Part shown: piece after piece, positions 44,620-61,356 of the stretch
How positions within the stretch are numbered: position 1 is the first letter of the stretch
How the letters are laid out: each line of letters opens with the position of its first letter
NCBI GenBank assembly: GCA_002783265.1
Contig: PFFG01000009.1
Location: 186,001-250,000, forward strand
Length of the DNA stretch: 64,000 nucleotides
Direction: 5' to 3'
Source of the DNA: Candidatus Gracilibacteria bacterium CG17_big_fil_post_rev_8_21_14_2_50_48_13
GTDB taxonomy: Bacteria > Patescibacteriota > Gracilibacteria > 1-14-2-50-48-13
Position numbers and translations under genes: made by a program
The notes under the pieces: model-generated
The model's database searches: none
What the model saw: the letters and a program-made list of their open reading frames with translations, nothing else
What the model was told of the DNA's origin: nothing

Positions 44620-47088
44620 CTACTTTTTGAGGAACCCGCGGATATACCCAAGCATCATGTCGTTATTGTAATGCTTTTGCTTAAAGGTATCCACCGCATC
44701 GCGCGTAGCGATATTCTGCTGGGGAGTCGCGCCGGAGTATGAGAGCATCAGGAGCGCTTCAAAGGCATGCGTAATCTGTGCAATCATGAGTGCACTGATG
44801 GAAAAGTCTGGTAATGGTCCCATATCGCTTCGCACCCGTCGTTCATTCACCATACGGAGAACAGGGTTCCAGCTGCTTTCTACAAATTGCTGAATTTCCT
44901 CATGCGTGTGCAGATACGCTCTTCGCTGTACTTCTGTTGGGATACTGGTATCTCCCACCATACTGGCAAAGTAAAGCGTTGCAATATCGATGTGCGCACT
45001 TAAATTATTTTTGAAAATTTCGCGCTCGAGCGCGGTCATATCCAGTGGGAAAATATCGTCCTTCTCAAATTCTGGAGCGATCCATTTTGTCCAGACATCC
45101 CAGTTGTGTTCTGACGAGGCTGCCTGTGGGAGAACCTGCACGTAGGCTCTGAGTTCAGGTGCTGCACGATTGGCAAAACCGGCATGCAGATTATTTTTTG
45201 TGTAGACGGGTGCTTCGGATTCACCAGACCGTGGATGCAGGGGGCGACTCTCCAGGCCGAGATCACAAAGCGTTTCTAGGGGCGCAATGTCGTCGCGCAG
45301 TTCGGCAAAAATATTGCGCAGTGTGTCTCTGGCTTCAGCATTATTCATTTCTGAACTGCCGCGAAGCACAGAAAAATGCAGGGCAAGATATTCCACAATG
45401 TCCGGTAGCGTGGCCAGCTGTTCTTTACGTTGCTCTTCCAGCATCTGCTCAGATTCAGCCATGCGATAATTGGGCCGAAGACGCTGATGGTGGTTGCGCA
45501 GAGATGCACGCAGCTTTCGCCGCAGAATTTCAAGGCGCTCCGTATTTTCTACGGTTCCTACGCCACTTCGAATAAATGCTGTTGGATCAAAGTGCGCCAA
45601 CTGGTGCCGCAGTGCAGAAAAGGATCGCTTTACGGCAACCTTTTCCTGACCGTCTGTCTGTGCATTAGTTGAGAGATCAATACCCATGAAGGCATCTGCT
45701 ACTATATCAATGTGCCCATCAAAAATCAGCGTTTGCACATTTTTTTTGACTTCTTCAACGCTTGAAGCGAGTGGGTTTATTTTATCCAGCTGTTTTTTGA
45801 CCCCCTGGGTATGCAATGCACTGCGTATTTGCTGATGAAAATGCTGTGCAATGGCCTTGTGGTCTTCCGTGTGCTCAAGAAGCAAGTTCTTGCGTTCCAG
45901 AGATTTGCGAATGCGCCCAATTACTTTTGGCAGTTTCCCGACATGACTTTGTGCTTTGCGCAGGAGGTTTTCTAGAATTTTCGTCTGCAGTGTCGTGCGT
46001 TTCGACATTGCATGCTGGGCAATGTACTCAAGTCGCTCGGCCCAGATACCCAAAAGTTCTGCCGGGTCCGCTTCAGGATTTGCCGCTGTGTAGGAAATCA
46101 GCATCTGGCGTACTTTGGCGATGAGGGACACTTCCAGGGGTGATTCTGCGTTTTGATCGAGGGTAAAGAGTGCATCGTGGATTTGCGCCATGCTTTTGTG
46201 GATATGCATGGTGGGGTTGTTCACCGCAAGGTGCTGCGGGTCAAAAGTGGGATCCTCAAGATTGGCAAAGGTTTTGACGTGCTCCTTTTTGTAGCCGGTG
46301 AAGAGTAGGGGACGATTACCCATAAGGCTATGGGGCAGCGCCTCTTCCGGGTCGCGCAAAATACATAACGCAGGCGTGGGTGATTCCAGATACAGGTGTT
46401 CTAAGCTTCCTGATACTTCGGGCTCGGCCATATGCAGCAGCATTTGCTGTTCATCCTCACTGAGTGCAGAAAAGTTTTCAATGACATAGAGCGTTTTTTG
46501 TCGCATGTCGCGGATCTCTTCTACGCCTTTGCCCAGCACATGGGCCTTTTTCGCCTGTGCCTTCAGATAGTCCATTTCATCTTTATACTCGGTTTGTGTC
46601 ACCATTGCGCTCGACTCGCTGACACGCAGGTATTCTTCGTCAATTGCCGCAAGAAGTTTTTGATTCTCTGTGGTGGCATAGGCGTCCTCCGCAAGGCCCG
46701 CATAGGCTCGTCGAAGAAGGGCAAGGAGCTCTTTGTTGCGCACCGCTCCATCAATGTGTTGTCGATATCGCATGCCCGTTGCAGCAGCAATGAAACTTAA
46801 GTCCTTTTTGATTCTTGCCTTTGCACGATCGTTGCCTGAAAATACAATGGGAAAACCTGCTTCAAGAGCAGTGAGAATGGTTTCCGTCGTCTTCAGGGGA
46901 AGAGCCTCATTATTGCGCTGTCTCTGTATTTCAGCATCCGTTACGGAAGGCCCGCGAACACTGCGATTAGCAACTATAGGGTGAAAAAACGGGTAGACTT
47001 GCTGGTCAAAATGCACATTTCCCCGCATCAGGGGAATATGGTGGATATCCTCGGGCAGGTGCCCAGGAGAGGTAGGTGTTTGCTTCAT
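44620..47088 (-). CDS. Large protein resembling an AAA+ ATPase that lost its catalytic motifs
   Basis: An 822-residue protein (ATG at 47088; 47112 is possible) with no recognised family. Residues ~65-260 follow the order of a MoxR/dynein-type AAA+ domain. ILTALEAGFPIVFSGNDRAKARIKKDLSFIAAATG stands where such proteins have A-L-x-A-G-x-x-V-L-L-x-G-P-P-G-T-G-K-T. KTLYVIENFSALSEDEQQMLLHMAE stands where Walker B (V-L-x-x-D-E-I-N...P-E-x-Q-x-x-L-L) would be. PALCILRDPEEALPHSLMGNRPLLF resembles sensor 1 (A-T-x-N-P-x-x...LP..L..R). The P-loop Gly/Lys/Thr and the Walker B Asp are missing, so ATP hydrolysis is unlikely. The remaining ~560 residues are mostly charged helix. No signal peptide or membrane helix. 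It is transcribed alone on the minus strand. Confidence 0.65.
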   Translation of the reverse strand: MKQTPTSPGHLPEDIHHIPLMRGNVHFDQQVYPFFHPIVANRSVRGPSVTDAEIQRQRNNEALPLKTTETILTALEAGFPIVFSGNDRAKARIKKDLSFIAAATGMRYRQHIDGAVRNKELLALLRRAYAGLAEDAYATTENQKLLAAIDEEYLRVSESSAMVTQTEYKDEMDYLKAQAKKAHVLGKGVEEIRDMRQKTLYVIENFSALSEDEQQMLLHMAEPEVSGSLEHLYLESPTPALCILRDPEEALPHSLMGNRPLLFTGYKKEHVKTFANLEDPTFDPQHLAVNNPTMHIHKSMAQIHDALFTLDQNAESPLEVSLIAKVRQMLISYTAANPEADPAELLGIWAERLEYIAQHAMSKRTTLQTKILENLLRKAQSHVGKLPKVIGRIRKSLERKNLLLEHTEDHKAIAQHFHQQIRSALHTQGVKKQLDKINPLASSVEEVKKNVQTLIFDGHIDIVADAFMGIDLSTNAQTDGQEKVAVKRSFSALRHQLAHFDPTAFIRSGVGTVENTERLEILRRKLRASLRNHHQRLRPNYRMAESEQMLEEQRKEQLATLPDIVEYLALHFSVLRGSSEMNNAEARDTLRNIFAELRDDIAPLETLCDLGLESRPLHPRSGESEAPVYTKNNLHAGFANRAAPELRAYVQVLPQAASSEHNWDVWTKWIAPEFEKDDIFPLDMTALEREIFKNNLSAHIDIATLYFASMVGDTSIPTEVQRRAYLHTHEEIQQFVESSWNPVLRMVNERRVRSDMGPLPDFSISALMIAQITHAFEALLMLSYSGATPQQNIATRDAVDTFKQKHYNNDMMLGYIRGFLKK

Positions 47089-47231
47089 AAATTCATGGTT
47101 ATTTCGCCGCATGTACTAACGGTTTCCAGAAAAAAAGTCAACGTATGCACATTTTCTGAAAGAAAATCTTCCTGGCATGCGTATACAGGGGTGAAGCACT
47201 CGAGCCTTCTCTTTACACATCAACTTCTCTT

Positions 47232-47810
47232 ATGAAAAAAATTCTTTCCCTCGCACTGATTGGTGCAACATGTATTACGGGTGCGGGTGTCGCCTTTGCG
47301 CAAAGTAGCGACGGTGCTGCTGCCGGGAACCAGATTCGCGCAGAACGTCCCTTTGGTGGACGTGCCATGCAAAAGGCGCCCTTCGATGTCAACGTCACCA
47401 AAATCGACCAGGGGGTCGTCATTACGAAAACCTCTTCGGACGCAGCCGTTGTCACGAAACTCCAGGAAAATCTCGATAAGGAGGCAGGACGTATCGGTGA
47501 GCATGCTGATATGAAGGATGTCACGGTCAATAAAGAAAAGCTTGATAACGGTATTCGTATCACGCTCACGAGTACGGACGCGGACACGGTCGCCAAGCTC
47601 CAGAATCCACCAAAGCAGATGGAACGGGGAATGGGTCGTGGACACGGTCATCCCGGCGGTAAAATGATGGATATGGAAGGTGTTGATATCTCTGTGGAAA
47701 ACGTAGACAATGGCGTTGTCGTTCGCCATACCTCTACGGATCCCGAGAAGGTCAAGGCTCTCCAGGAAATGTTTGCAAAGCGCCAGGCGAACCAGCAGGC
47801 AGCTCAATAA
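47232..47810 (+). CDS. Exported protein with three related ~28-residue repeats
   Basis: 192 residues. The signal peptide MKKILSLALIGATCITGAGVAFAQ is clear. Three repeats follow: VNVTKIDQGVVITKTSSDAAVVTKLQ (~52-77), VTVNKEKLDNGIRITLTSTDADTVAKLQ (~96-123) and ISVENVDNGVVVRHTSTDPEKVKALQ (~149-174). Each is strand, D-N/Q-G turn, strand, T-S-T/S-D, helix ending in LQ. A Met/Gly/His-rich linker (MERGMGRGHGHPGGKMMDMEG) between repeats 2 and 3 could bind metal. No family name is certain. It is the first gene before an ECF sigma factor and its likely membrane partner, so an extracytoplasmic sensing role is plausible, by context only. Confidence 0.75.
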   Translation: MKKILSLALIGATCITGAGVAFAQSSDGAAAGNQIRAERPFGGRAMQKAPFDVNVTKIDQGVVITKTSSDAAVVTKLQENLDKEAGRIGEHADMKDVTVNKEKLDNGIRITLTSTDADTVAKLQNPPKQMERGMGRGHGHPGGKMMDMEGVDISVENVDNGVVVRHTSTDPEKVKALQEMFAKRQANQQAAQ

Positions 47811-47832
47811 TTTCTTTGTTCTCTCAAGCGTT

Positions 47833-47857
47833 CTAGGGTGCCCTCTCAGCACCCTAG
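47833..47857 (+). promoter_or_regulatory. Hairpin just upstream of the ECF sigma gene
   Basis: CTAGGGTGC (47833-47841), a 7-base loop and GCACCCTAG (47849-47857) form a perfect 9-bp stem. It ends 13 bases before the sigma-factor ATG. There is no T run, so it is not a standard terminator. It may limit readthrough from the upstream gene, protect an mRNA end or influence translation. Confidence 0.7.
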
Positions 47858-47870
47858 GACCTTTCCCTCT

Positions 47871-48458
47871 ATGCGCTCCCAAACACACATCTATAGCTCG
47901 CAGGAAGGTTTTGAGTCGCTCGTTCATGAGTATACTCCCGCTCTTCTTCGCTTTGTCCAGAGACTCGCAAATCTCGATCTGCCTGCTGCTGAAGATATCG
48001 TACAAGACACCTTTGTGACAGCCTGGAAGTATATTTATAGCTTCGATCCTTCCTATTCTGTGAAAGCCTGGCTCTATCGCATTGCCCGGCAACAAACCGT
48101 CAGTGCCTTTCGTCGCACGAAAAACCGCCCCACGGGCGCCTACCATCTTGAGGGCGATGAAGAGCTTTTGCATAGCATTGCGAGCGACATAGATGTGCCC
48201 TCCGAAGTCGCTTCCAAACTCATGCTAGATGCCATCCATGAAGCGCTGGGAACCCTCCCAGAAGATCTCCGAGCTGTCCTTGTTCTTCGTTTCATGGATG
48301 ACATGTCGTATGATGACATTGCGGATGTCCTTCGCAAGCCGCCAGGCACCATTGCCACCCTTCTCCATCGAGGAAAAAAACAACTCGCTGAAACCCTTCG
48401 GCGACACTATCCTTCTCTTGTCCATGAACACGAACTTTCCCCAAAAAATCCTGCATAA
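47871..48458 (+). CDS. ECF-family RNA polymerase sigma factor
   Basis: The ATG at 47871 (MRSQTHIYSSQEGFESLVHEYTPALLRFVQRL) gives 195 residues. Sigma region 2 contains DLPAAEDIVQDTFVTAWKYIYSFDPSYSVKAWLYRIARQQTVSAFRR, with the -10-recognising helix. Region 4 contains ALGTLPEDLRAVLVLRFMDDMSYDDIADVLRKPPGTIATLLHRGKKQLAETL, the -35-binding helix-turn-helix. There is no region 3, as expected for ECF factors. It overlaps the following membrane-protein gene by 35 bases, the usual arrangement with an anti-sigma factor. Target promoters are unknown; the adjacent giant SLH gene is an obvious candidate. Confidence 0.94.
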   Translation: MRSQTHIYSSQEGFESLVHEYTPALLRFVQRLANLDLPAAEDIVQDTFVTAWKYIYSFDPSYSVKAWLYRIARQQTVSAFRRTKNRPTGAYHLEGDEELLHSIASDIDVPSEVASKLMLDAIHEALGTLPEDLRAVLVLRFMDDMSYDDIADVLRKPPGTIATLLHRGKKQLAETLRRHYPSLVHEHELSPKNPA

Positions 48459-49167
48459 AATCGAAGAGATGCGCCTTTCGCCCCTTCCGCCCTGGCTGTT
48501 TTTGGTGAAAAAATGGGCCGTGTATGTACTCCTGGTGCTCTCTGTGCTCTTGGGTGCACTCTCCCTTGCGTATAGTGTTTGGGGCGCGCAGGAAGCGCAA
48601 ATGCTGACTATTCTCCCGGAAGATCCTTCAGCAATCTTTTTCTCTCTTTTCTCCCTGTGGGGTTTTGTATTCCTTATCTTTGTGGGTTCTGCCCTGTGGA
48701 GCATAGAAAATACCGAGCGAGGCTATCGGGTTCCCCTGCTTCTCTGGATTCTTTCGAATCTTGCGGTGACAGGTGCACTCGCCCTCGTCTTTTTGGCCGT
48801 TGGCATACCCGAGCAGATGGACCCTCTGATTGAAGCCGGCATTCCCCCCATGAGTCGTGCGGGTGTCTCTGATGGACTCTGGGATATGCCAGGCCGAGGC
48901 CGAGTGCACGGAATGATCATGCAGATGGAGCCCTCCATTGTTCTCGAAGACCCCATGGGTATGCAGTGGAACGTTTTGGTGAGTCGAGATACGCGTATGC
49001 AAATCCCTCTTGAGGAGGGGCGCCGTGTAGGAATCCTGGGTGATGTACCGGAACCGGGTGAAATTCATGCTCGGGTGATTGTTCCTGCAAGAAAACCTCT
49101 GCCTCGACAACTCCCTCCAAAAAAGCTGCAGGATCGTCCCAATACCCTCAATATGCAGAGAAAGTAG
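48424..49167 (+). CDS. Membrane protein, probable anti-sigma factor with OB-like extracytoplasmic domain
   Basis: From the ATG at 48424 it has 247 residues. A short cytoplasmic N-terminus (MNTNFPQKILHKIEEMRLSPLPPW) is followed by three membrane helices at about 31-53, 70-92 and 101-123. A C-terminal extracytoplasmic domain follows (PGRGRVHGMIMQMEPSIVLEDPMGMQWNVLVSRDTRMQIPLEEGRRVGILGDV...GEIHARVIVPA), a beta pattern like the small OB-type DUF5666 domain. No zinc-type anti-sigma HxxxCxxC motif is present. The overlap with the sigma gene, the topology and the exported repeat protein upstream support an anti-sigma role. This is inference. Confidence 0.75.
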   Translation: MNTNFPQKILHKIEEMRLSPLPPWLFLVKKWAVYVLLVLSVLLGALSLAYSVWGAQEAQMLTILPEDPSAIFFSLFSLWGFVFLIFVGSALWSIENTERGYRVPLLLWILSNLAVTGALALVFLAVGIPEQMDPLIEAGIPPMSRAGVSDGLWDMPGRGRVHGMIMQMEPSIVLEDPMGMQWNVLVSRDTRMQIPLEEGRRVGILGDVPEPGEIHARVIVPARKPLPRQLPPKKLQDRPNTLNMQRK

Positions 49168-49224
49168 GTGCATTTTGCGTGTGTTTCTGGTAATATGGGG
49201 GAGTACCTATTCCAATACGCACCC

Positions 49225-52200
49225 ATGACACACAAAAAAATCTGGCTAGGCATCGCTTGCGCACTTTTGCTCGCGATGCAGATTTTTGCGGCCAATCCAG
49301 CCTACGCCAAGTCCACTCCTGCCGCGTTCTATCTCGATGATAGTATTCACAACGGTGAGACTCTCGAGATTATGCTCCCTTCAGAGAAGACAGATCTTCT
49401 TGATGCAACACTCCATATTGATGCTCTCGGCGTCGATGTGCCCCTGACCGCCAATAGTGACCGTACGTTCTGGCGCGGCTCCTGGTCTGCTTCTGGTTTG
49501 ACGACGGACATATACACAACAACGCTACGTCTGACCTACAATGACGATCGGGGTCAGGTAACTACAGCGGGACCATCCTTTTCCGATCCTGTTTTTGGAA
49601 ATACAACACCTGGCACGACGGCCTACAGCAATGGACAAATACGCCATGATGGAAAAATCGATGGGCGAACGGAAATTCCAAACCCAATGAATTTTCAAGT
49701 GGACGAAGCAAATGGATATGGCTATGTCATGAGCTATGGTGGATCTTCCGAATCGCTGATCAAGTTTTCACTGACCGACCCCACAGACACGCAGTTTCTC
49801 ACTTTTCCTGTAGAAGGTGGATGGTATCAGGGATCACGTCTTAGCCCTGATGGCGCCTACTACTACGTACTGCCCTATAATAGCGATAAAGTCGCCTACA
49901 AAGTAGATACGGCGACTATGACTATTGTCGGCTCTCTGGCCTTAGCAGGAGACCTTGGATATGTGGAAGAATCTTATCTTGATACGGTGGGAGGTTTTTT
50001 GTATCTCGCATCTGATCATGCAGGTGGTGCATATATTACGAAAATTGACGTTGCAAATTTCACCCTTGTAACGACCTTAACCCTCAATGCCACGGAAGAG
50101 TACCCGACAGCTCTTATGTACAATGCGGGCACCTTGTATGTCGGCCTGGTGAGCAATCCTTCCATTGTTTCTGTGGATACGGCGACCATGACGCGAACAT
50201 CCGCGGTGACGTACCCAAACCCAGAACTCTCGCAGGGTTTCTGGTATGCCGGTAACCAGACACCTATTGCAGGCTTCTACTATTTATCAGTGTATCGAGG
50301 AGCGGGCCCCCATTATATTGCAAAAATTGACGCGACGACCTTGGCCCTCACGAGTCTTATGACCTTGGGGTTAAATGAAAAATACCCGACAGGTTATGCC
50401 TATGACGGGGGAACTACCTTATATTTCTCAGGGTATATAGACGCATCAAATAACAACTATATATCGAGCATTGATTTAACGACGTTCACACGTAATGGTA
50501 CGACGGTAACAACAGACTATGGAGATTATCGCAACCTCCATTACTCTACGACGGAATCGAAGGTGTTGTTTGCTGCGCAAGATCCAACTACAGCAAACTG
50601 GTATCTCAATCTTCGGCGTTTTAATCCGTCCACGCTTGCGGAAACGTCCAATATGCCTGCGCAGAATATCGATACGTACAGTTTTGACTACGCCATAGAT
50701 GAAGCAGCGGGCTTTGGATATACGTTGCAAAACACGTCCCCCATTTCCATCGGTAAGTTCGACCTAGCAACAAGAACTCGTGTTGCAACACTGCAACTGT
50801 CTGCTGCACTCACATTGAATGCCTTTGAGTCAAAAATGTATCTTGATGCTTCCTCCGGTCGTCTCTATGTGGGCGTTTATGATCCAAATGCAGCGAATAA
50901 TGACTACATTTATACCATTGCACTGTCCAATTTTACGGAAGTTGGCGCGACCAATATTGGTCCAGCCCGCGATGTGAAATTTATGACCATTGACCCGAAT
51001 AATAACTATTTGTATGCCTTGGCAAAGGAAGGCACTGCATGGAAGGTGGTTCGTATGGATAGAGCGTCCCTTACCTTTGTGATGTCTTCGAATCTTGCTG
51101 CAAACTATGTTGATGCGGCCTATTTGTCCTATGATCCAACTTCGGGTTATCTGTATGGACTTCTCTATGATAACGGCTTTGCTGTTTGGAGTCTTGTGCA
51201 GATGACAACAACGGGAAGTGTCATAAATTCCGTCAACCTTGCACCTGGAGATACCGTCGGTACGGCGTATCTTGATACGACGCAGAGGGTCATGTCGGTA
51301 GCGACACGACAATCTCCGGCAAAGCTTCTGACCTTCAATATTGATTCGATGACGTCTGTGTCCTCGCTCACCCTCAATGCGGGTCAAAACGATATCAAGT
51401 CCATGACCGTCGATACGGCGTCACAAATTGCGTATCTGTTGACGAAAACGGCACCCGCCCAGATTGTGAAGGTGAATATGCAGACTATGGCGAATCTCGG
51501 TGCCATCGTGCATGATGAAGCGGACCATAATCCCGTAGCAATTTCCTACGATGCTACCCGTGGAAATGTGTATACCTTGTTTGAATTAAGTGGAGTCCGC
51601 CTTCGCATTACCAAAGCATCTCATAAAGGCAGTGTATGGGCGACAAAAGTAACGCTTGCATCTCCAGCGACAAACATTGCCCAAATGCGTTTTTACTCAC
51701 ACGAAGCGGCAGGTAATCTTCGTCTTGCTCTCTATGACAGCAGTAAAAACCTCGTTTGGCAAAGTGGCTCCATAGCCAATACAGCAGCAGGTACGTGGGT
51801 GCGGGCATCTATTAGTGGTGGAACTCCTTCATCACTTGCCAGTCTTGCAGCAGGAGATTACTGGCTTGCTTTTCAAACGGACTCCAACAAACCTGTTGCG
51901 AGTTATACAGCGGGTGCTGCAGGTTCAGGCTTGTTCCTTTCGCAGGATTTTGCCACCTTCCCTGGAAGCATTGCAGCAGGAACTCTGACGGCGCAAAACT
52001 ACACGGTCAACGTGGTGTATGACACAGGTTTCCTTGTGACACAAACAGGCGGAACTACCGTCATTACCGAAGGAGGACCCAATGATACCTATTCCATTGT
52101 GCTCACAGGACAGCCAAGCGGTAATGTTGATATTGCCCTTTCCGCAACAGGTGGCGTGCAGCTTAGTCCAAACAACCTGACCTTTACCTCAGGAAACTGG

Positions 52201-55200
52201 AATACGCCGCAAACCGTGACCGTTTCTATTCCCGACAATGCGACACCAGAATCGAACCGCGTTGAAACGATTTCCCATGTTATTACGGCAGCAGCCTTTG
52301 ATTACGGCCAAGATGCCATTGCTCCTATTTCTGTCACGGTGGTCGATCCTACCGCCTTACCAACAGCAGGTTCTGTCGTTGGTGTCACCAGTATTGGTTC
52401 AACGAACTATCCTGATGGCGGCTTTACACGCATTTCAGGTTCCTTCTTGCCATGGGGTGGTGCGTCAAACCGCACTATGACTGTGGATACGGTCAACGGT
52501 AGTTTGGTTATGGGCGGTAACACCTTCGGAGGACTGAACAAAGTCGATCTCGGTTCCTTTACTTGGTCTACTGCGTTACCAACGAGTGAAGACCTGGGCG
52601 AAGTGCAGATGGAGGCGGGAGCTATCGATGAAGTCAACCATATTGGCTACTACGTAGCAGATGGCGCAACACCTACGCGTATTATCAAGTTCCGTACCAC
52701 GGACATGGAACATATCCAGACAGCGGCGCTGCCACTCGGTGATGTTTCGCCTCGCCGCGTTGTACTCGATACAGCCAATGACATGATGTATATCTACTTA
52801 AAGACTAGCCCTTCAAAGGTAGTAAAGGTCCGTATGTCGACGCTCGAAAAAGTGGGTCAGACAGTTCTTGACGCTATGGAAGATGAAAATTATACGCTTG
52901 TTCTTGGAGGCGACGGGTTTGCGTATCTCGCAGGAACAACATCCAACACAGTGTATAAGATCAATACAAGCACGATGGTGGTGGCAGCGCGTCTCACGCT
53001 TCCTGCTCCTAATAATGGTGTGTATGAAGGATTCCAGAAACCGGTCGGTGGGAAAGTGTATTTTCTCGCATACCCAACGGCGGGGCTTCTTCCTCTCAAT
53101 CTTGCAACCTTCACCTTCGATGCCACTATTCCACTGGCGACCGCAGCCACCAGTATTCGTGCTGTTGATGTCGATGTTGCCAATGCGAAGGGATATATCG
53201 GGCAAGCCGTTACCGGTGTGACCAAGATTAATTTGCTGACGGGTGCTTCGGAGGGAAACATTCCTACGACGGTTGGTGCTCTTCGCGGTATGAGTATTGA
53301 TGCAACGAATCAGTTTGGATATTTCACAGAGGAATATGCCAACGACGGAGCAACCACGGTGGATCTCAAGAAATTCAATTTGTCGACCATGGCTTTGGTC
53401 AGTACCTTGTCCTTTCCGTCTATCCAGTCGGTGCAGGCCTACAGTGTTCTGAACAATCCGAATGGTGCAGAGTACTTTGTGGCTGGACAGTATAATCGCC
53501 CGGTTTTGAGTAAATTTAACAAGGACACCATGCAGCGTGTGGCATCCTTCAAGATTACGGACGGAGGGACAAATGAAAAACTTGAGCCCGTGTACGATAC
53601 GACGCGCGACATGATTTACTGGGGTGCGGATAAGTCGGGAGCTACGGCGGATACTCTCCTGAAAATAGACCCTGCCACCATGACCCAGGTGGGTTCCATA
53701 AACTTAAATGCCTATAATGAAGTGACCGGCGGCGTGATTGACGCTACGGGAACCTTTGGCTACTTTTTGACGAAGAAAGATGAGGCGGGTACCGGTGCGA
53801 CCTCAAATACGCGGGTGATCAAGGTCAATCTTGCAACCTTTATGGTGGATTCCACCTTTGATCTCGCGGGTGGCTACAACCAGGCGCGTCGACCTGTGCT
53901 TGCTTCGGATGGCATGATGTACTTTGGGGTGCAAAAAACCACGGCACCTTCAGGGCCTCATCTCATCAAGTTCAACACGGCGACTATGACCCAGGTTGGT
54001 GACATTACGCTCACAGATGAGAGCTTTAACATGGTTCTCGATGAGGCACACAATACGATGTATTTGCTTACCTATGCATTTCCTGCGGCAATTGTGCCTG
54101 TGGACCTTGGAACCTTTACCACGGGGGCAGGGCTTACCTTGCCAGCAGATATGGGTATGCCATCCGGTATCACGCTGGATGCGGCACGAGACCTTCTCTA
54201 TGTGCTGGTGGCAGACGATACAACGACCTGGCCGGACCGAAAGTCCTATACCATAAAAATTCAGCGTTCACCTTTAGCGGTTCTTGGATCCTTGCAAGGG
54301 CGCTACTGGGAAAATGAACCGGAGGCATCTTTCCTCGATATAGCACGAGGAGCGCTCTACAACGTGTACTACTACGCATACATTGGACCCGTTGCGAAAA
54401 TTTTGCCCAGTTTCAAGGGGGCTACTTGGGGAACGAAGGTGACACTGACGGAAACAACGAATGTGGTGGATACTTTCCGATTCTATGCGCATAACGCATC
54501 AGGGAATGCTCGTCTTGCGTTGTATGACGCGTCGATGAATCTTGTTTGGGAAAGTACCAGCATTGCTATGACGGGTAATGACATGTGGTACAACGTGAAT
54601 GTGTCTGATGGAACGCCAACAGCTCTCTCTCTTGCAGCGGGTACCTACTGGCTTGCTTTCCAGACAGATGATATGTCGCTCCAGCCAGGATACACTCTCG
54701 GTTCTGCGAATACGGGATTCTATATTCCTTCAACCTTTGGTGCCTTCCCGTCTTCTCTTGCGTCGACAACACCAACCTACACGACCCGCAACTTTAGTAT
54801 GGCCATGACGGTCAATGTGGGAACAAGTTTAGTGCAGAGTGGTGGTTCCACCTCTATCGTTGAAGGAGCAGCAGGTGATACCTACTCTGTTGTCTTAAAC
54901 TCTCAGCCAGGAGCAGATGTGGTGGTGAACCTCACGGTGCCAGGCGGGCTGACGACAGATGTGACGACACTGACCTTTACACGGGATAACTGGAATGTAC
55001 CGCAGACGGTCACCGTCACGGCAGCCAATAATAACACAACGGATGGAACCCGTAATTTGGTCATTACGCATACTATTGTGACGTCGGATCCTTATTATGC
55101 GGGTCAAACCCTTGGCAGTGTAACGGTTGTGGTGGCTGACCCCGCTTCTGCGGCACCAGCGGCGCCAAGTTCCCCATTCATGGGTAGTGGTGGTGGATTT

Positions 55201-55983
55201 TCAGCAACGGACTACCAGCAGTATATTTCTTCTGTGAATAATGGGCAGTCGAGTACTACGAACTCCGGCGGCAATACGACGCAAAACTCTGGAGGAACGA
55301 GTGGAAACAAGGGGGGAAACGGAGCAATTACTGTGCCAACTCCTCTTCGGTTCTCTGCACCAGACGCACAGCAAGTGTCCCTCTGTGAGTTCCAGCGTCT
55401 TAACAACCTATCCAGCACCTTTGACCCAGCGACGCTGCAAAATATTGCGGATTTTGCCGACAGTAACTTCCGCATTTTGGTCCGCGACTTTGGAGTAATT
55501 CTTGGAGATGAAGCAAAGGATTTTGATCCTCGCGCTTCCGTTACGCGCTCGGAAATTCTTCGGCTCGTGCTGCAAACCAAGTGTGGATCCTTTGTTCTTC
55601 CAAAGATGAAGGCGCAGCCCTTCCCGGATGTTTCTATTTTGCACAAGGATGCAATCTATGTAGCAACGGCGAAAGCGCAGGACATTGTGAGTGGTTACCT
55701 CCACGATGGTACCTACAAACCTGATAACAATATTTCTCGCGCGGAAGCATTGAAGATCGTGCTTGAGGTCCTCTTCTCGCGATCGGGCTTCAAAGTCCAG
55801 GGGGCAGGCGCGTCACGGATTCCTGACGTGTCTATTGCGGACTGGTACTACCGATATGTCGACTTTGCACGAGAAAAGGGCATCGTTGCAGATGGTATGC
55901 CGTTCCGCCCAGGCGATATGGCGACTCGCGAAGATATCGCGACCTTCATTGTTGAGGGCATGCGCTCTCTGAGTATTCGGTAA
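49225..55983 (+). CDS. Giant SLH-anchored surface protein with duplicated propeller/jelly-roll/Calx-beta-like modules
   Basis: 2252 residues from the ATG at 49225 (MTHKKIWLGIACALLLAMQIFAANPAYA, a signal peptide). The chain is two related halves. Each has a long run of short beta units (SLTLNAGQNDIKSMTVDTASQIAYLLTK and many like it, with the recurring D-T-A-T/S-M-T-x-V-G pattern) that look like propeller blades. Each then has a domain like WATKVTLASPATNIAQMRFYSHEAAGNLRLALYDSSKNLVW (about 810-930 and again about 1720-1840), then a Calx-beta-like domain (ITEGGPNDTYSIVLTGQP..., IVEGAAGDTYSVVLNSQP...). After a Ser/Gly/Asn linker the C-terminus has three SLH repeats, from about 2060 onward (for example FPDVSILHKDAIYVATAKAQDIVSGYLHDGTYKP). 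It is probably wall-bound and outward-facing, perhaps an adhesin or glycan binder. Confidence 0.9.
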   Translation: MTHKKIWLGIACALLLAMQIFAANPAYAKSTPAAFYLDDSIHNGETLEIMLPSEKTDLLDATLHIDALGVDVPLTANSDRTFWRGSWSASGLTTDIYTTTLRLTYNDDRGQVTTAGPSFSDPVFGNTTPGTTAYSNGQIRHDGKIDGRTEIPNPMNFQVDEANGYGYVMSYGGSSESLIKFSLTDPTDTQFLTFPVEGGWYQGSRLSPDGAYYYVLPYNSDKVAYKVDTATMTIVGSLALAGDLGYVEESYLDTVGGFLYLASDHAGGAYITKIDVANFTLVTTLTLNATEEYPTALMYNAGTLYVGLVSNPSIVSVDTATMTRTSAVTYPNPELSQGFWYAGNQTPIAGFYYLSVYRGAGPHYIAKIDATTLALTSLMTLGLNEKYPTGYAYDGGTTLYFSGYIDASNNNYISSIDLTTFTRNGTTVTTDYGDYRNLHYSTTESKVLFAAQDPTTANWYLNLRRFNPSTLAETSNMPAQNIDTYSFDYAIDEAAGFGYTLQNTSPISIGKFDLATRTRVATLQLSAALTLNAFESKMYLDASSGRLYVGVYDPNAANNDYIYTIALSNFTEVGATNIGPARDVKFMTIDPNNNYLYALAKEGTAWKVVRMDRASLTFVMSSNLAANYVDAAYLSYDPTSGYLYGLLYDNGFAVWSLVQMTTTGSVINSVNLAPGDTVGTAYLDTTQRVMSVATRQSPAKLLTFNIDSMTSVSSLTLNAGQNDIKSMTVDTASQIAYLLTKTAPAQIVKVNMQTMANLGAIVHDEADHNPVAISYDATRGNVYTLFELSGVRLRITKASHKGSVWATKVTLASPATNIAQMRFYSHEAAGNLRLALYDSSKNLVWQSGSIANTAAGTWVRASISGGTPSSLASLAAGDYWLAFQTDSNKPVASYTAGAAGSGLFLSQDFATFPGSIAAGTLTAQNYTVNVVYDTGFLVTQTGGTTVITEGGPNDTYSIVLTGQPSGNVDIALSATGGVQLSPNNLTFTSGNWNTPQTVTVSIPDNATPESNRVETISHVITAAAFDYGQDAIAPISVTVVDPTALPTAGSVVGVTSIGSTNYPDGGFTRISGSFLPWGGASNRTMTVDTVNGSLVMGGNTFGGLNKVDLGSFTWSTALPTSEDLGEVQMEAGAIDEVNHIGYYVADGATPTRIIKFRTTDMEHIQTAALPLGDVSPRRVVLDTANDMMYIYLKTSPSKVVKVRMSTLEKVGQTVLDAMEDENYTLVLGGDGFAYLAGTTSNTVYKINTSTMVVAARLTLPAPNNGVYEGFQKPVGGKVYFLAYPTAGLLPLNLATFTFDATIPLATAATSIRAVDVDVANAKGYIGQAVTGVTKINLLTGASEGNIPTTVGALRGMSIDATNQFGYFTEEYANDGATTVDLKKFNLSTMALVSTLSFPSIQSVQAYSVLNNPNGAEYFVAGQYNRPVLSKFNKDTMQRVASFKITDGGTNEKLEPVYDTTRDMIYWGADKSGATADTLLKIDPATMTQVGSINLNAYNEVTGGVIDATGTFGYFLTKKDEAGTGATSNTRVIKVNLATFMVDSTFDLAGGYNQARRPVLASDGMMYFGVQKTTAPSGPHLIKFNTATMTQVGDITLTDESFNMVLDEAHNTMYLLTYAFPAAIVPVDLGTFTTGAGLTLPADMGMPSGITLDAARDLLYVLVADDTTTWPDRKSYTIKIQRSPLAVLGSLQGRYWENEPEASFLDIARGALYNVYYYAYIGPVAKILPSFKGATWGTKVTLTETTNVVDTFRFYAHNASGNARLALYDASMNLVWESTSIAMTGNDMWYNVNVSDGTPTALSLAAGTYWLAFQTDDMSLQPGYTLGSANTGFYIPSTFGAFPSSLASTTPTYTTRNFSMAMTVNVGTSLVQSGGSTSIVEGAAGDTYSVVLNSQPGADVVVNLTVPGGLTTDVTTLTFTRDNWNVPQTVTVTAANNNTTDGTRNLVITHTIVTSDPYYAGQTLGSVTVVVADPASAAPAAPSSPFMGSGGGFSATDYQQYISSVNNGQSSTTNSGGNTTQNSGGTSGNKGGNGAITVPTPLRFSAPDAQQVSLCEFQRLNNLSSTFDPATLQNIADFADSNFRILVRDFGVILGDEAKDFDPRASVTRSEILRLVLQTKCGSFVLPKMKAQPFPDVSILHKDAIYVATAKAQDIVSGYLHDGTYKPDNNISRAEALKIVLEVLFSRSGFKVQGAGASRIPDVSIADWYYRYVDFAREKGIVADGMPFRPGDMATREDIATFIVEGMRSLSIR

Positions 55984-55990
55984 GTTGGGG

Positions 55991-56016
55991 AAAAAAGGCC
56001 CTTCGGGGCCTTTTTT
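55991..56016. terminator. Bidirectional terminator between two convergent SLH genes
   Basis: AAAAAAGGCCC, TTCG, GGGCCTTTTTT. The A and T runs on both sides let it serve the giant SLH gene (plus) and the 544-residue SLH gene (minus), whose stop codon lies within its edge. Confidence 0.92.
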
Positions 56017-57649
56017 AGTAGGGAAGATTATTTTGAAAGCCTTCGCTGCCCATCATGTCATTGACAATGATTTTGACTGCTTCTGCGCGTGTCATTGGCG
56101 CAAAAGGCCGAAAGGTCCCATCGCTATAACCACTGGCGAGATTGTTTTCCGTCGCAAAGGAGATATATGGGGCAAACCAAGCAAAACCATCGACATCCGC
56201 AAAGCGACGTGAGAGAGCCATCCGGTCAAAATTTTTCTCGATGAAACTAGGAAATTGACGAATACGAGCCACGGCCAGCAATTTGACTGCTTCAGCACGG
56301 GTGACCGGTTTGTTTGGCTCATACATTCCGTTTCCATAGCCTTGGAGAATCCCCTCTTGAACGGCTGTTGCCATGTAGGGGTTGTACCAAGCAGTCGGAT
56401 CCATGTCGCCACCCGCAATACTGCGACCTGCGGTATTATATCCATAGGCTCTGATGAGAAGAGTGACCATTTCTGCTCGGCTTATGTACTCGTCAGGGCG
56501 ATATCTGCCACCGTAATTTTCCTCTACAATACCAAGATAGCGCCCTGCGTAAAAGTAATCACGTCCCCAATGTCTACAGACGTCAGAACCTGAGATCTCA
56601 GTTTGGCACACATCTTGCACGCTCATCATTTCCAGTGCGGTTCCATCTGGAAGTCCAAGAGAGGTTTTGTTGGGTGACCATGTATTTGTCGTGTTCAATT
56701 GCAGATGTATTTTCTCTGATGAAACGACATCAAAGGTCAAAGATCCACCTGCATTGGTGCATTCTCCCATAACCGAGAGTGAGTTTCCTGGCTCTGGTGC
56801 TGAGATATTTGTGGTAAATTTCTGTTGTGCAGGAAAGTAGGAAAATCTTGCTCTATTTATGTCTTCTACGATTTCGATACGGACTTCTTCAATGTTTCCG
56901 GTTGCTTCGTCAACGAGAAGAAAGAGGGGTTGCTGGGCGATGAGATCGCTTAATACAGCGAGTGTGCCAGTAATGGTATTTTTTCGTGTGCCTTGTTGCC
57001 AAAGCTTTTTTGCTTCAGAAAAAATATTTGGATTGAGTGTTGTACTATACAGACTAAAATTACCCTCCGACTGCAAGAATGACGGATTTTTAAACAGTGC
57101 TTCTTCTCCAATGGAGTTATAGAGGCGCATTTTGAGCGTCTCCGCAAGGGTTGATCGTGCAATAATAGTCTCGGGTAATGCTTGTTCTAAGGCGATCCAA
57201 TTTCCCTCGAGCAGTCCAAGTCCAAAGGCGTAGTCGTTCTTGTAGAGGTCATACATACTTCCTGAACCGGTATAGTTCAAATTATAGAAAATTCCGTCCG
57301 TCTGATCTCTGTCTGCTCGTAGTCCAAGAACTACAGAAAGATCACCGTGATCCGATGAGTTTTTTGCATAATAGGTGAGCGACAGTGGCATGTGCACTTC
57401 AAAAGTGGGTGCTTTCTTTGCATCAAGCGTCTGAATGGTTGGGGTTGCGCTCAGGGCAATAGCATAATCCTGATCAAGGGTTAAATCCATGTTGAGCTGT
57501 ATCTGTGTGGTTGATATCATCCATTGCAAGCTTTCTGAACCACGGAGTTCTGCCCGTATCTGTTGTTTGAGAGGAATTTCATTGATATTGGCCGCGTACG
57601 TTGTGAACAATTGGGCGGAAAAAACCAAGGCAATGAGGATGCGTTTCAT
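56015..57649 (-). CDS. SLH-domain surface protein (544 aa)
   Basis: Signal peptide MKRILIALVFSAQLFTTYAA, then ~330 residues of unknown fold with many short beta strands and some helices (SLTYYAKNSSDHGDLSVVLGLRADRDQTDG). Three SLH repeats close the protein: DYFYAGRYLGIVEENYGGRYRPDEYISRAEMVTLLIRAYG (~365-405), TAWYNPYMATAVQEGILQGYGNGMYEPNKPVTRAEAVKLL and FAWFAPYISFATENNLASGYSDGTFRPFAPMTRAEAVKII. Two cysteine pairs are possible in the region before the SLH part. The N-terminal domain matches no family I know. It converges on the giant SLH gene. Confidence 0.88.
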   Translation of the reverse strand: MKRILIALVFSAQLFTTYAANINEIPLKQQIRAELRGSESLQWMISTTQIQLNMDLTLDQDYAIALSATPTIQTLDAKKAPTFEVHMPLSLTYYAKNSSDHGDLSVVLGLRADRDQTDGIFYNLNYTGSGSMYDLYKNDYAFGLGLLEGNWIALEQALPETIIARSTLAETLKMRLYNSIGEEALFKNPSFLQSEGNFSLYSTTLNPNIFSEAKKLWQQGTRKNTITGTLAVLSDLIAQQPLFLLVDEATGNIEEVRIEIVEDINRARFSYFPAQQKFTTNISAPEPGNSLSVMGECTNAGGSLTFDVVSSEKIHLQLNTTNTWSPNKTSLGLPDGTALEMMSVQDVCQTEISGSDVCRHWGRDYFYAGRYLGIVEENYGGRYRPDEYISRAEMVTLLIRAYGYNTAGRSIAGGDMDPTAWYNPYMATAVQEGILQGYGNGMYEPNKPVTRAEAVKLLAVARIRQFPSFIEKNFDRMALSRRFADVDGFAWFAPYISFATENNLASGYSDGTFRPFAPMTRAEAVKIIVNDMMGSEGFQNNLPY

Positions 57650-58797: not shown

Positions 58798-61191
58798 CTA
58801 TTGAAAGTTATCGAAGTAGTCCTTTGCCGCCCAAACACGGTAGATTATTTCTGATGCTTGCTCGCGAGTTATTGCGTCGTACGGGCGAAAGCTAAGCTGA
58901 GTAAAAATGCCAAGAGCTCGGCCAGTGGTTTCGTACGGAGTAAACCACAAATTATTCATTCCTTCTGTGTTGGCTCCTTCAAATCCATTGGTCACTACAG
59001 CGATTTTTACTGCTTCGCTATAGGTGATACTATTTGCAGGACGGAAAGTTCCATCTGTATATCCTTCGATAATGCCATGTTTTTGAGCAAAACATACATA
59101 GGGGATATACCACTCATATGGGGAGATGTCTTTAAAGCAGGGCGATGCCATCTGCGAAGCGGTCTCTCGCCGAATTTCTTCATCGGTGTAACGAGACAGC
59201 AGGAGAATTTTTGTGAATTCAGCACGATTGATCAGATTCTTTGGGCGAAAACTTCCATCGGGATACCCATTCATCATGCGCAGCTCTTTGAGAGTGAGCA
59301 GTGCATTGTAGAACTCCGTCGATACCTGAAATTTATCACTAAAGTCGAGAAGAGAAAGTGCCGTACTGCTATCTGCATAATTCAATGTGGGGAGTAATTC
59401 ACTGCTGCGTGCTGCCATTACTGGAGATAGAATCCCCTTTGTTCCATTGGGAAGTGTATATGCAATGGTGATGTAACGATATGGCATGAACTTCTCACTG
59501 AGTTCTATCGCATATTGGCCATTTTCTTGGGAGGTAATATTGACTAAGCATGTTCCTCGGGGCGCTTCATTTGGCAGATAGGAAATCAGTTCTACGGCGG
59601 CTCCCGTCGTGAGCGTTTCTGAAAGATAGCAGGTGATATCTCCCCGCTGTTTTTCCGTTAATCCATCAAAGGAATTCGTGCTGTAGTTTTTTACGGGGGC
59701 ACTGAATAACAACTTTTGTTCTGCTAATCCCTTTCCAGGCTTTATCAGCAACTGGGACTCATCTTTGGTCCAAGCAATTTCTGGAAGGGTAAAATTTGCA
59801 GGGGATGTTGGGACGACTGTCGGCACGGGTGTCACCGTCTCTGGTGTTGGAACGGAAGTGAGGGCAATATCTTTATAAACAGAACCCTTAACAAATGGTC
59901 CAACGAAGACGTTTGCAAAACCATTTTTCGGTATAGGAAACAGGCCAAACAAGTAATTATCTAGGTTGTAGTCGCTGTACGTAATTTTGATGGTGTAGAC
60001 ATCTGTCGTATTTGGAACCTTTGTAATTTCCTTCGTACAATTTGACGATGTAATTTTCCCGCCAATGGTCAATTCAGAACTTTCTATTCGACAGATTTTC
60101 ACTGGTGTCGTAAGACCTCGATCCAGACCAATATTTATATCTCTCGGCAATATTGTTGTAGTTCCCGGTGCATCAATATACATCTCATAGGTTTGTATTT
60201 CCGGTGAGTGCTGAAGGCGAAGGGTATTGTTGCCAAGATAGCTAAAGTGGGTTGCTACATATGCATCCGTCGCAAAACCCTGTGCGGCAGGAATGATGAA
60301 GGGGCTTGAATAGGTCCCCACTTGTCCTGAAGATGATATTGGTGCCACTGCTATATTCTTTCCTGGCGTTAAGGTACGGAAACTAAACTCTATTGAACCC
60401 ATTTTAGGGTCTGTTCCGAAACTGTATCCATGCAGAATAAAATCACACGGCAAAACTGGATCGGTACTCGTTTTGAAGTTCACATCACACACATTGAATT
60501 CATCTGGTTGACTGACAAGTCTCTTTAAAAAACTATCCCGTGAATGCGCCTTCGCAGTTTTGGTGGTTGCAATACGAAGACCAGAGGTTGATTCGTCGAC
60601 GTTTTGAAGGACAAACTTTTTCCCTTCGGTAAGGGATAATCTAGGTAGCGCTAGGGTAGCGGTGTCTACTCCCAATCGGAGAAACATGGAGGCTTCAGAG
60701 ACGCGGCCAGCAGTGTCGCTCAATCTCGAAGAAACGTAGTAGTTCCGTAGTCCGAGTTTGCGTAAAAGAATATGAAAGGTAGGGAGTCGGTTTGTCGTGT
60801 CATAGGTAGACCAAACAGTGAAATCACATAAGTCTGAATTTACAGACGAAGTGGTTTTCCCACCTGTTATATCTGCTGCACTGGGAATCTGTGCGATAGG
60901 TATCGTACAATTCATCACTGTTGGGTTTGTCCATGGCGAAATGACCTGTGTAGTATTTGTTTGAGAAAACAGCACATGCAGGTTGGTAGAGTAATACCCT
61001 GAGGTGTCACCCATATCGCGGTAATAGATGTTTTCTGGAGTAATTGAAAGCTCATACGAATCCGTGTCTCCTGAAATACGCATTTGAGGAGGATCGTAGG
61101 TTTCCGCGGCTAAGGTCGTGCCCATAGCAGTAAGGGCAAGAGTCAAGAGCGTGAGTGCTCCCAAGCGAACGACACGTATAAAGTGTTCCAT
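58798..61191 (-). CDS. SLH-domain surface protein (797 aa)
   Basis: From the ATG at 61191 (MEHFIRVVRLGALTLLTLALTAMGTTLAA, a signal peptide). About 590 residues of beta-rich sequence follow in several Ig-like units, for example MRISGDTDSYELSITPENIYYRD and LRLQHSPEIQTYEMYIDAPGTTTILPRDI. Pairs of cysteines (MNCTIPIA...NSDLCDFTV, VCDVNF...LPCDFIL, KICRI...SSNCTK) could form disulfides. A Pro/Thr/Val linker (VPTPETVTPVPTVVPTSP) divides the chain. Three SLH repeats end it: ELRMMNGYPDGSFRPKNLINRAEF, YEWYIPYVCFAQKHGIIEGYTDGTFRP and GRALGIFTQLSFRPYDAITREQ. The cysteine content contrasts with the cysteine-free major SLH protein. Confidence 0.88.
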   Translation of the reverse strand: MEHFIRVVRLGALTLLTLALTAMGTTLAAETYDPPQMRISGDTDSYELSITPENIYYRDMGDTSGYYSTNLHVLFSQTNTTQVISPWTNPTVMNCTIPIAQIPSAADITGGKTTSSVNSDLCDFTVWSTYDTTNRLPTFHILLRKLGLRNYYVSSRLSDTAGRVSEASMFLRLGVDTATLALPRLSLTEGKKFVLQNVDESTSGLRIATTKTAKAHSRDSFLKRLVSQPDEFNVCDVNFKTSTDPVLPCDFILHGYSFGTDPKMGSIEFSFRTLTPGKNIAVAPISSSGQVGTYSSPFIIPAAQGFATDAYVATHFSYLGNNTLRLQHSPEIQTYEMYIDAPGTTTILPRDINIGLDRGLTTPVKICRIESSELTIGGKITSSNCTKEITKVPNTTDVYTIKITYSDYNLDNYLFGLFPIPKNGFANVFVGPFVKGSVYKDIALTSVPTPETVTPVPTVVPTSPANFTLPEIAWTKDESQLLIKPGKGLAEQKLLFSAPVKNYSTNSFDGLTEKQRGDITCYLSETLTTGAAVELISYLPNEAPRGTCLVNITSQENGQYAIELSEKFMPYRYITIAYTLPNGTKGILSPVMAARSSELLPTLNYADSSTALSLLDFSDKFQVSTEFYNALLTLKELRMMNGYPDGSFRPKNLINRAEFTKILLLSRYTDEEIRRETASQMASPCFKDISPYEWYIPYVCFAQKHGIIEGYTDGTFRPANSITYSEAVKIAVVTNGFEGANTEGMNNLWFTPYETTGRALGIFTQLSFRPYDAITREQASEIIYRVWAAKDYFDNFQ

Positions 61192-61356
61192 GGAATGGAT
61201 GTTACAAAGTTTGAAAAAACTATAGATGTATTTACAAAATAACAAAGGAATCCCGCTTTTCCCAATAGAAGAAAACTGTCATCGCATCTGTTTCCTTTAG
61301 CCTTGCCCAAGTAGCGCCCACTGTGGTACATACATCGGGTATTGTTACTACAGACT

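Follow-up and report, generated by a model that had tools for sequence, protein, structure and literature searches.

Described systems with which the locus analysed here can be compared include SigW-RsiW of B. subtilis, CnrYXH of Cupriavidus metallidurans and the Cpx/ZraSR-type systems. RsiW combines a larger zinc-type cytosolic domain with one transmembrane (TM) helix, and CnrY, the type example of class II anti-sigma factors, has one TM helix and is devoid of an outer domain. In Cpx/ZraSR-type systems a small exported and strongly induced protein (Spy, CpxP, ZraP) serves as target or feedback partner, and exporters belong to the regulon. For Patescibacteria, which are numerous, mostly uncultured and in many cases probably attached to other cells, little is known about the regulation of the envelope, and our search of the open-access full-text literature yielded no description of an ECF/anti-sigma pair in this phylum.

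On the evidence collected here, the locus is most likely a SigW-like ECF switch with which Patescibacteria respond to envelope stress and which controls its own expression; its anti-sigma family would be new. We assign this reading a probability of roughly 0.78. The locus resembles SigW-RsiW in that (i) SigW is the nearest solved sigma factor, (ii) the promoter has SigW-like boxes and spacing, (iii) the switch appears to be autoregulated, and (iv) envelope and exporter genes are among the predicted targets. Unlike RsiW, however, the candidate anti-sigma factor possesses three TM helices, an N-terminus of ~30 residues lacking HxxxCxxC, and an outer OB-like domain. A very short cytosolic anti-sigma segment (here a putative one), an ECF sigma factor and a small exported partner (here with a Met/His/Gly-rich tail) are likewise found in CnrYXH, but CnrX is not recognisably related to the exported proteins described below, metal sensing is hypothetical here, and the sigma factor is distant from CnrH. 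The parallel with Spy, CpxP and ZraP lies in the small exported target protein and in the exporters of the regulon, although those systems are two-component systems and the family-level matches obtained here are all below cut-off; one relative of the exported protein matches ZraP weakly (E=0.02).

The window (the whole stretch of 64,000 nucleotides that was analysed) belongs to a genome of 1.28 Mb which is 97% complete, contains 69 SLH motifs and represents a small, probably host-dependent bacterium. Positions 47232-55983 of the + strand hold four ORFs in line, encoding an exported repeat protein, an ECF sigma factor, a membrane protein and a giant SLH protein, and this run is flanked by a divergent gene (44620-47112, minus strand) and a convergent gene (56015-57649, minus strand). 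Its features are:

47156..47186, + strand: ECF (SigW-like) promoter CTGAAAGAAA-N12-TGCGTATAC, 45 bp upstream of 47232, 24.5 bits
47232..47810, + strand: small exported protein, 192 aa, with signal peptide (ORF; related genes precede sigma, or follow the same motif in trans)
47826..47863, + strand: RNA hairpin between repeat gene and sigma, -22.4 kcal/mol, z -5.2, no U-run
47871..48458, + strand (longer ORF 47838-48458 from GTG): ECF sigma factor (Sigma70_r2 E=5e-15, r4_2 E=9e-17)
48424..49167, + strand, from ATG: putative anti-sigma factor, 247 aa (82 pairs, family alignment, model pLDDT 81.6)
48892..49089, + strand: predicted extracytoplasmic OB-like five-stranded barrel, residues 157-222 of the membrane protein (structure model, fold matches)
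49225..55983, + strand: giant exported protein, 2252 aa, two SLH motifs over the Pfam cut-off (ORF, Pfam)

The preliminary description had listed four genes in line, and all four were found on the + strand where it had placed them. Its account of the individual products also proved accurate: an exported protein with three repeats and a His/Met-rich linker (47232-47810), an ECF sigma factor (Sigma70 region 2 and r4_2 matches), an overlapping three-helix membrane protein with a predicted OB-like outer domain (a C-terminal beta barrel in the model) and without the common zinc motif, and a 2252-residue wall protein with its two SLH motifs. The divergent gene encodes an 830-residue protein of no recognised family, with 119 bp between the two start codons. 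Just downstream, two more SLH proteins (56015-57649 and 58798-61245, both on the minus strand) are convergent with the giant gene, so that a local SLH cluster is formed.

The sigma factor is a short two-domain ECF protein comprising Sigma70 regions 2 and 4 only (PF04542 and PF08281, both over cut-off), and it scores 100 bits against TIGR02937 (cut-off 42.9). Its nearest solved structure is that of B. subtilis SigW (5wuq, E=6e-38), and the match to the CnrH structure (4cxf, E=1e-18) reflects a distant relation. The scores set for the curated SigW families are not reached (TIGR02948, 85 bits against a cut-off of 243; PRK09641, 92.9 against 209). The true start is probably ATG 47871 rather than GTG 47838, because the latter sits inside the hairpin.

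The four-gene order, whose conservation the preliminary description named as a check, breaks up in relatives because the giant protein has no more than short domain matches in the remaining 59 genomes of the class; the complete order was seen in the source genome only. The conserved unit is smaller than had been claimed and consists of the ECF sigma factor and the overlapping three-helix membrane protein. After removal of duplicates, 82 distinct pairs of this kind were obtained from Patescibacteria and a few other MAGs, invariably with sigma first and the membrane protein second, at a median spacing of about 5 bp and with frequent overlap. The membrane protein is present in 70 of 287 genomes drawn evenly from the phylum; a search of 60 genomes of the class gave a match in 29, the source genome included, and an ECF sigma gene lies directly upstream in nearly all true cases. 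One match (G053, E=0.007) was discarded as chance. Named genomes were searched with a profile of the sigma alignment, the membrane family being too divergent to serve as alignment query, and this revealed pairs in Moranbacteria, Magasanikbacteria, Uhrbacteria, Falkowbacteria, Komeilibacteria, Dojkabacteria and others. A few pairs also occur in MAGs labelled Chlorobiaceae, Atribacterota, Saprospiraceae, Lutibacter and Micavibrio. At three loci (L111, L121 and L127, including the Saprospiraceae- and Lutibacter-labelled MAGs) the exported partner is DUF2202-like (PF09968 confirmed in L121), which suggests either that the module was transferred beyond Patescibacteria or that the MAGs were mis-binned. 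One Gracilibacteria MAG carries a second, different ECF sigma gene directly after the pair (L101:7405-7962).

The start codon of the membrane protein (ATG 48424) lies within the last 35 nt of the sigma gene, which amounts to an overlap of 35 nt. Hydrophobicity, together with a structure model built from 27 sequences, predicts a cytosolic N-terminus of ~30 residues, three TM helices and the outer OB-like domain, the barrel of which matches IF-1 4ql5 (TMt 0.66), 3i4o (TMt 0.68) and CcmE 1sr3 (TMt 0.45), all with E > 0.001. A zinc-type (class I) identity is ruled out, as HxxxCxxC occurs in 0/27 family members, and the protein of the source genome is devoid of any cysteine. Class I anti-sigma factors possess a four-helix cytosolic anti-sigma domain of about 100 residues (PMC7406223), which is not found here, where only about 22-30 residues precede TM1. 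When compared with the two-helix segment by which class II (CnrY-type) factors embrace sigma2 and sigma4, the N-terminus fits in length, and one helix is predicted by the model (residues 5-15).

Searches of Pfam, NCBIfam and PDB with the membrane protein returned neither a relative nor an anti-sigma domain, and mutual information between sigma and membrane protein across the 82 pairs did not resolve a clear interface. Both results would fit a co-expressed effector or a transporter accessory in place of an anti-sigma factor. We consider this very unlikely, since the order of sigma and membrane gene is fixed, with overlap, no other candidate regulator lies beside sigma, and conservation peaks on the cytosolic faces (1.84 and 2.52 bits per column for the N-terminus and the inner loop vs 1.1-1.4 elsewhere). 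Moreover, the only genome of the class that has a clear copy with sigma not adjacent (G004) holds a truncated one. The membrane protein is thus probably an anti-sigma factor of an undescribed type that holds back sigma, and the sigma/anti-sigma reading as such is well supported at the level of sequence. The earlier suggestion of a different anti-sigma type gains support for this candidate, which is new to Pfam, NCBIfam and PDB, lacks the zinc motif and is paired with sigma. In G004 (L072:8859-9443) the outer domain of the membrane protein is gone, and its gene directly precedes that of a four-repeat exported protein, an arrangement that looks like decay of the switch.

A count of gapped words upstream of 80 sigma genes yielded GAAA-N18-CGTA at 19/80 genes, compared with 0.4 in shuffles. 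The consensus is TTGAAAGAAA-N11/12-tgCGTATaA, with the refined form tTGAAAGAAA-N11/12-tgCGTATaA, and the refined matrix finds sites above its training threshold at 56/80 loci; at the loose threshold, random fragments pass at 7-20/80. Sites of at least 15 bits lie within 200 bp of 41 of the 82 sigma genes, so that about half have no strong site. The position weight matrix (PWM) was trained only on regions upstream of sigma genes, the downstream exported genes forming no part of the training set, and at a threshold of >=18 bits it detects sites in front of 33/46 downstream exported genes vs 8/612 other genes, several of these 8 being MacB ATPase, MacA, DUF2202 and DYxxW genes. This gene-based control was used in place of random fragments, which had been drawn from the module loci themselves and thus inflated the upper percentiles. 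The strict motif has 48 matches (reversed control, 7) in the 28 genomes that carry the membrane gene, compared with 9 (control, 8) in the 32 that lack it; for genomes having at least one strict match, Fisher's test of presence against absence of the membrane gene gives p=1e-4. The SigW promoter is TGAAAC-N16/17-CGTA (PMC2375139), and the promoter observed here, TGAAAG-N16/17-CGTAT, has the same boxes and spacing and differs at one position (G for C).

In the source genome, the site at 47156-47186 retains 20.7 bits when the PWM is learned only on the loci of other genomes; the next best site in the window reaches 14.8 bits under the full PWM. It is also the sole match to TGAAAGAAAN13-14CGTA in the 1.28 Mb genome. 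Of the shared promoter that had been proposed upstream of 47232 and 49225, the former part is confirmed and the latter is not, the best score upstream of 49225 being 5.3 bits (PWM learned on other loci). Autoregulation is suggested by the ECF-type motif, which precedes sigma operons and here lies 45 bp from 47232. Loose motif patterns are not enriched (39 vs 47 in the control, and 31 vs 42), and therefore do not point to a large regulon here; as the strict motif occurs once, the regulon may consist of the single operon from 47232 onward. The motif was not detected at the MacB homologues of the source genome. Other sites of at least 19 bits in this genome (L180, L190) are not directly upstream of a gene and were not counted.

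In relatives, strict sites elsewhere in the genome precede MacA/HlyD-type adaptors (MacA-like fusion proteins; G006, G028, G038, G056), exported repeat genes (G024, G046, G054), a small lipoprotein (also G006), an SLH protein (G010) and a deacetylase/glycosyltransferase (G034). Beside the module itself, a MacB-permease-adaptor operon in G007 (L070) has a 27.8-bit site, and a MacA-MacB operon in a Magasanikbacterium (L099) a 25.1-bit site. MacB permease, ATPase and HlyD/MacA adaptor genes of MacAB-type ABC exporters carry the motif in several genomes, and these exporters would be targets lying outside the switch. The IMPDH gene behind a site in G014 is probably incidental. Judged from the exporters and envelope genes behind the motif, the regulon looks like an envelope-stress response, and the MacAB neighbours suggest an antimicrobial-stress signal. 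We lean towards the wider view that this is a phylum-wide ECF system of Patescibacteria whose own anti-sigma family (three TM helices, a sigma-binding tail of ~30 residues, an extracytoplasmic OB-like sensor) is unlike the described classes and drives interchangeable small exported Gly/His/Met-rich proteins and MacAB exporters. The main interest resides in this regulatory module with its readable promoter and probably new anti-sigma family: it offers a defined switch, a promoter motif for which the phylum can be scanned, a first regulon and a new family of anti-sigma candidates.

The exported protein of the source genome contains three repeats of ~33 residues (at residues 50, 96 and 150), predicted to be beta-beta-alpha units ('DNGVxITxTSxDxxxVxxLQ'), and, separating the second repeat from the third, a Gly/His/Met-rich linker (ERGMGRGHGHPGGKMMDME); a fold search with this protein gave no meaningful match. 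Next to the pair there is usually a small exported protein whose tail is Gly-rich and enriched in Met/His. Partners of the repeat type lie mostly upstream of the pair, an unrelated-looking 'GDYxAWxxL...ITxxNFxxL' type is commoner and lies downstream, and DUF2202, fasciclin, FMN-binding and DUF2680-like proteins are rarer; no Pfam family exists for either the repeat type or the DYxxW type. The tails of 30 exported proteins comprise 21% Gly, 5.1% Met and 3.1% His vs a background of 7.1, 2.4 and 1.9%.

This enrichment, as well as the three-part layout of exported protein, short cytosolic anti-sigma segment and ECF sigma factor, would be consistent with a CnrYXH-like metal switch in which the exported protein is a periplasmic metal sensor acting on the membrane protein. 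Copper genes flank the module at two named loci, with a CsoR-type repressor and a CopA-type ATPase at L099 and a CopA-type ATPase at L143 (one site at these two loci has 18.4 bits), and the repeat protein adjoins a two-component system in two genomes lacking the ECF pair. Yet many pairs lack the exported protein or have an unrelated one in its place, with repeat, DYxxW, DUF2202, fasciclin or FMN-binding folds, a variety more readily compatible with an output than with a shared sensor. Its gene also stands behind a sigma promoter of its own and may lie in trans, and a conserved set of metal ligands is absent from these proteins. A metal sensor of this kind is therefore unlikely, while a metal signal is possible and is suggested by the copper islands beside L099 and L143. 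The exported protein, cast as sensor in the preliminary description, is indeed a regular third member of the module. The sensor label is unproven, because the protein is a conserved sigma target that is sometimes encoded elsewhere in the genome; it is the predicted main target of sigma, and should be seen as a conserved target no less than as a sensor. At L099 (1445-12510) the module lies between the MacA-MacB operon and the copper island. At L079:5426-7706 and L078:3-2227 (G015, G052), genes for an OmpR-type response regulator and a HAMP histidine kinase come after that of the repeat protein, giving this exported family a different signalling partner.

The autoregulated switch may thus be pictured as follows. 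Without stress, the short conserved cytosolic N-terminus and the inner loop of the membrane protein would hold sigma at the membrane. An envelope signal, perceived via the outer OB-like domain or via partner proteins such as the exported protein, would release sigma, and RNA polymerase carrying it would start at the consensus promoter and yield more sigma and membrane protein, the chief product being the small exported Gly/His/Met-rich protein. In relatives, the motif evidence suggests that sigma also activates MacA/MacB-type exporters and other envelope genes. In the source genome, transcription would produce the repeat protein, then, past the hairpin, sigma and the membrane protein, and possibly, by read-through, the giant SLH protein.

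The hairpin might act as an attenuator or as an mRNA stabiliser. In two relatives (L060, L064) a true rho-independent terminator occupies its place, with a second ECF promoter behind it. The sequence is most naturally read to mean that the repeat protein would be made in excess, with sigma and the membrane protein expressed through partial read-through. The giant gene would then be reachable only through read-through past the hairpin, which is plausible since the 57 bp ahead of 49225 showed neither a recognisable terminator nor a sigma-70-like promoter, and since the convergent gene closes the run. These features, and the position of all four genes between a divergent and a convergent neighbour, also agree with the full model of the preliminary description, in which the locus is a single surface-signalling operon that has the repeat protein as its sensor and the production of the giant SLH protein as its purpose. 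SLH genes behind ECF sites in relatives point in the same direction: an 886-aa SLH gene lies 18 bp downstream of the exported gene in G014, and an SLH gene in G010 has its own 24.5-bit site. We nevertheless regard this model as doubtful, since 49225 is not preceded by the ECF motif, a hairpin of -22 kcal/mol separates the repeat gene from sigma, and the giant protein is not conserved by the module and has a paralogue sitting elsewhere. An SLH neighbour by chance is, moreover, not improbable given the number of SLH motifs in the genome. The idea that a giant adhesin is the point of the system is weak. A role as conserved partner is ruled out, as no orthologue adjoins the module in the 59 relatives; we regard the giant protein as a lineage-specific neighbour outside the conserved core and, possibly, as a fourth gene of the operon. 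Its paralogue (2146 aa) is encoded on contig 5 of the source genome. The only other family match of note, to a lactonase-type beta-propeller, is weak and below cut-off (E=0.0014). Self-comparison of the whole protein gave no pairs, and comparison of its halves revealed a duplicated half of ~930 residues, with 29% identity between the two copies.
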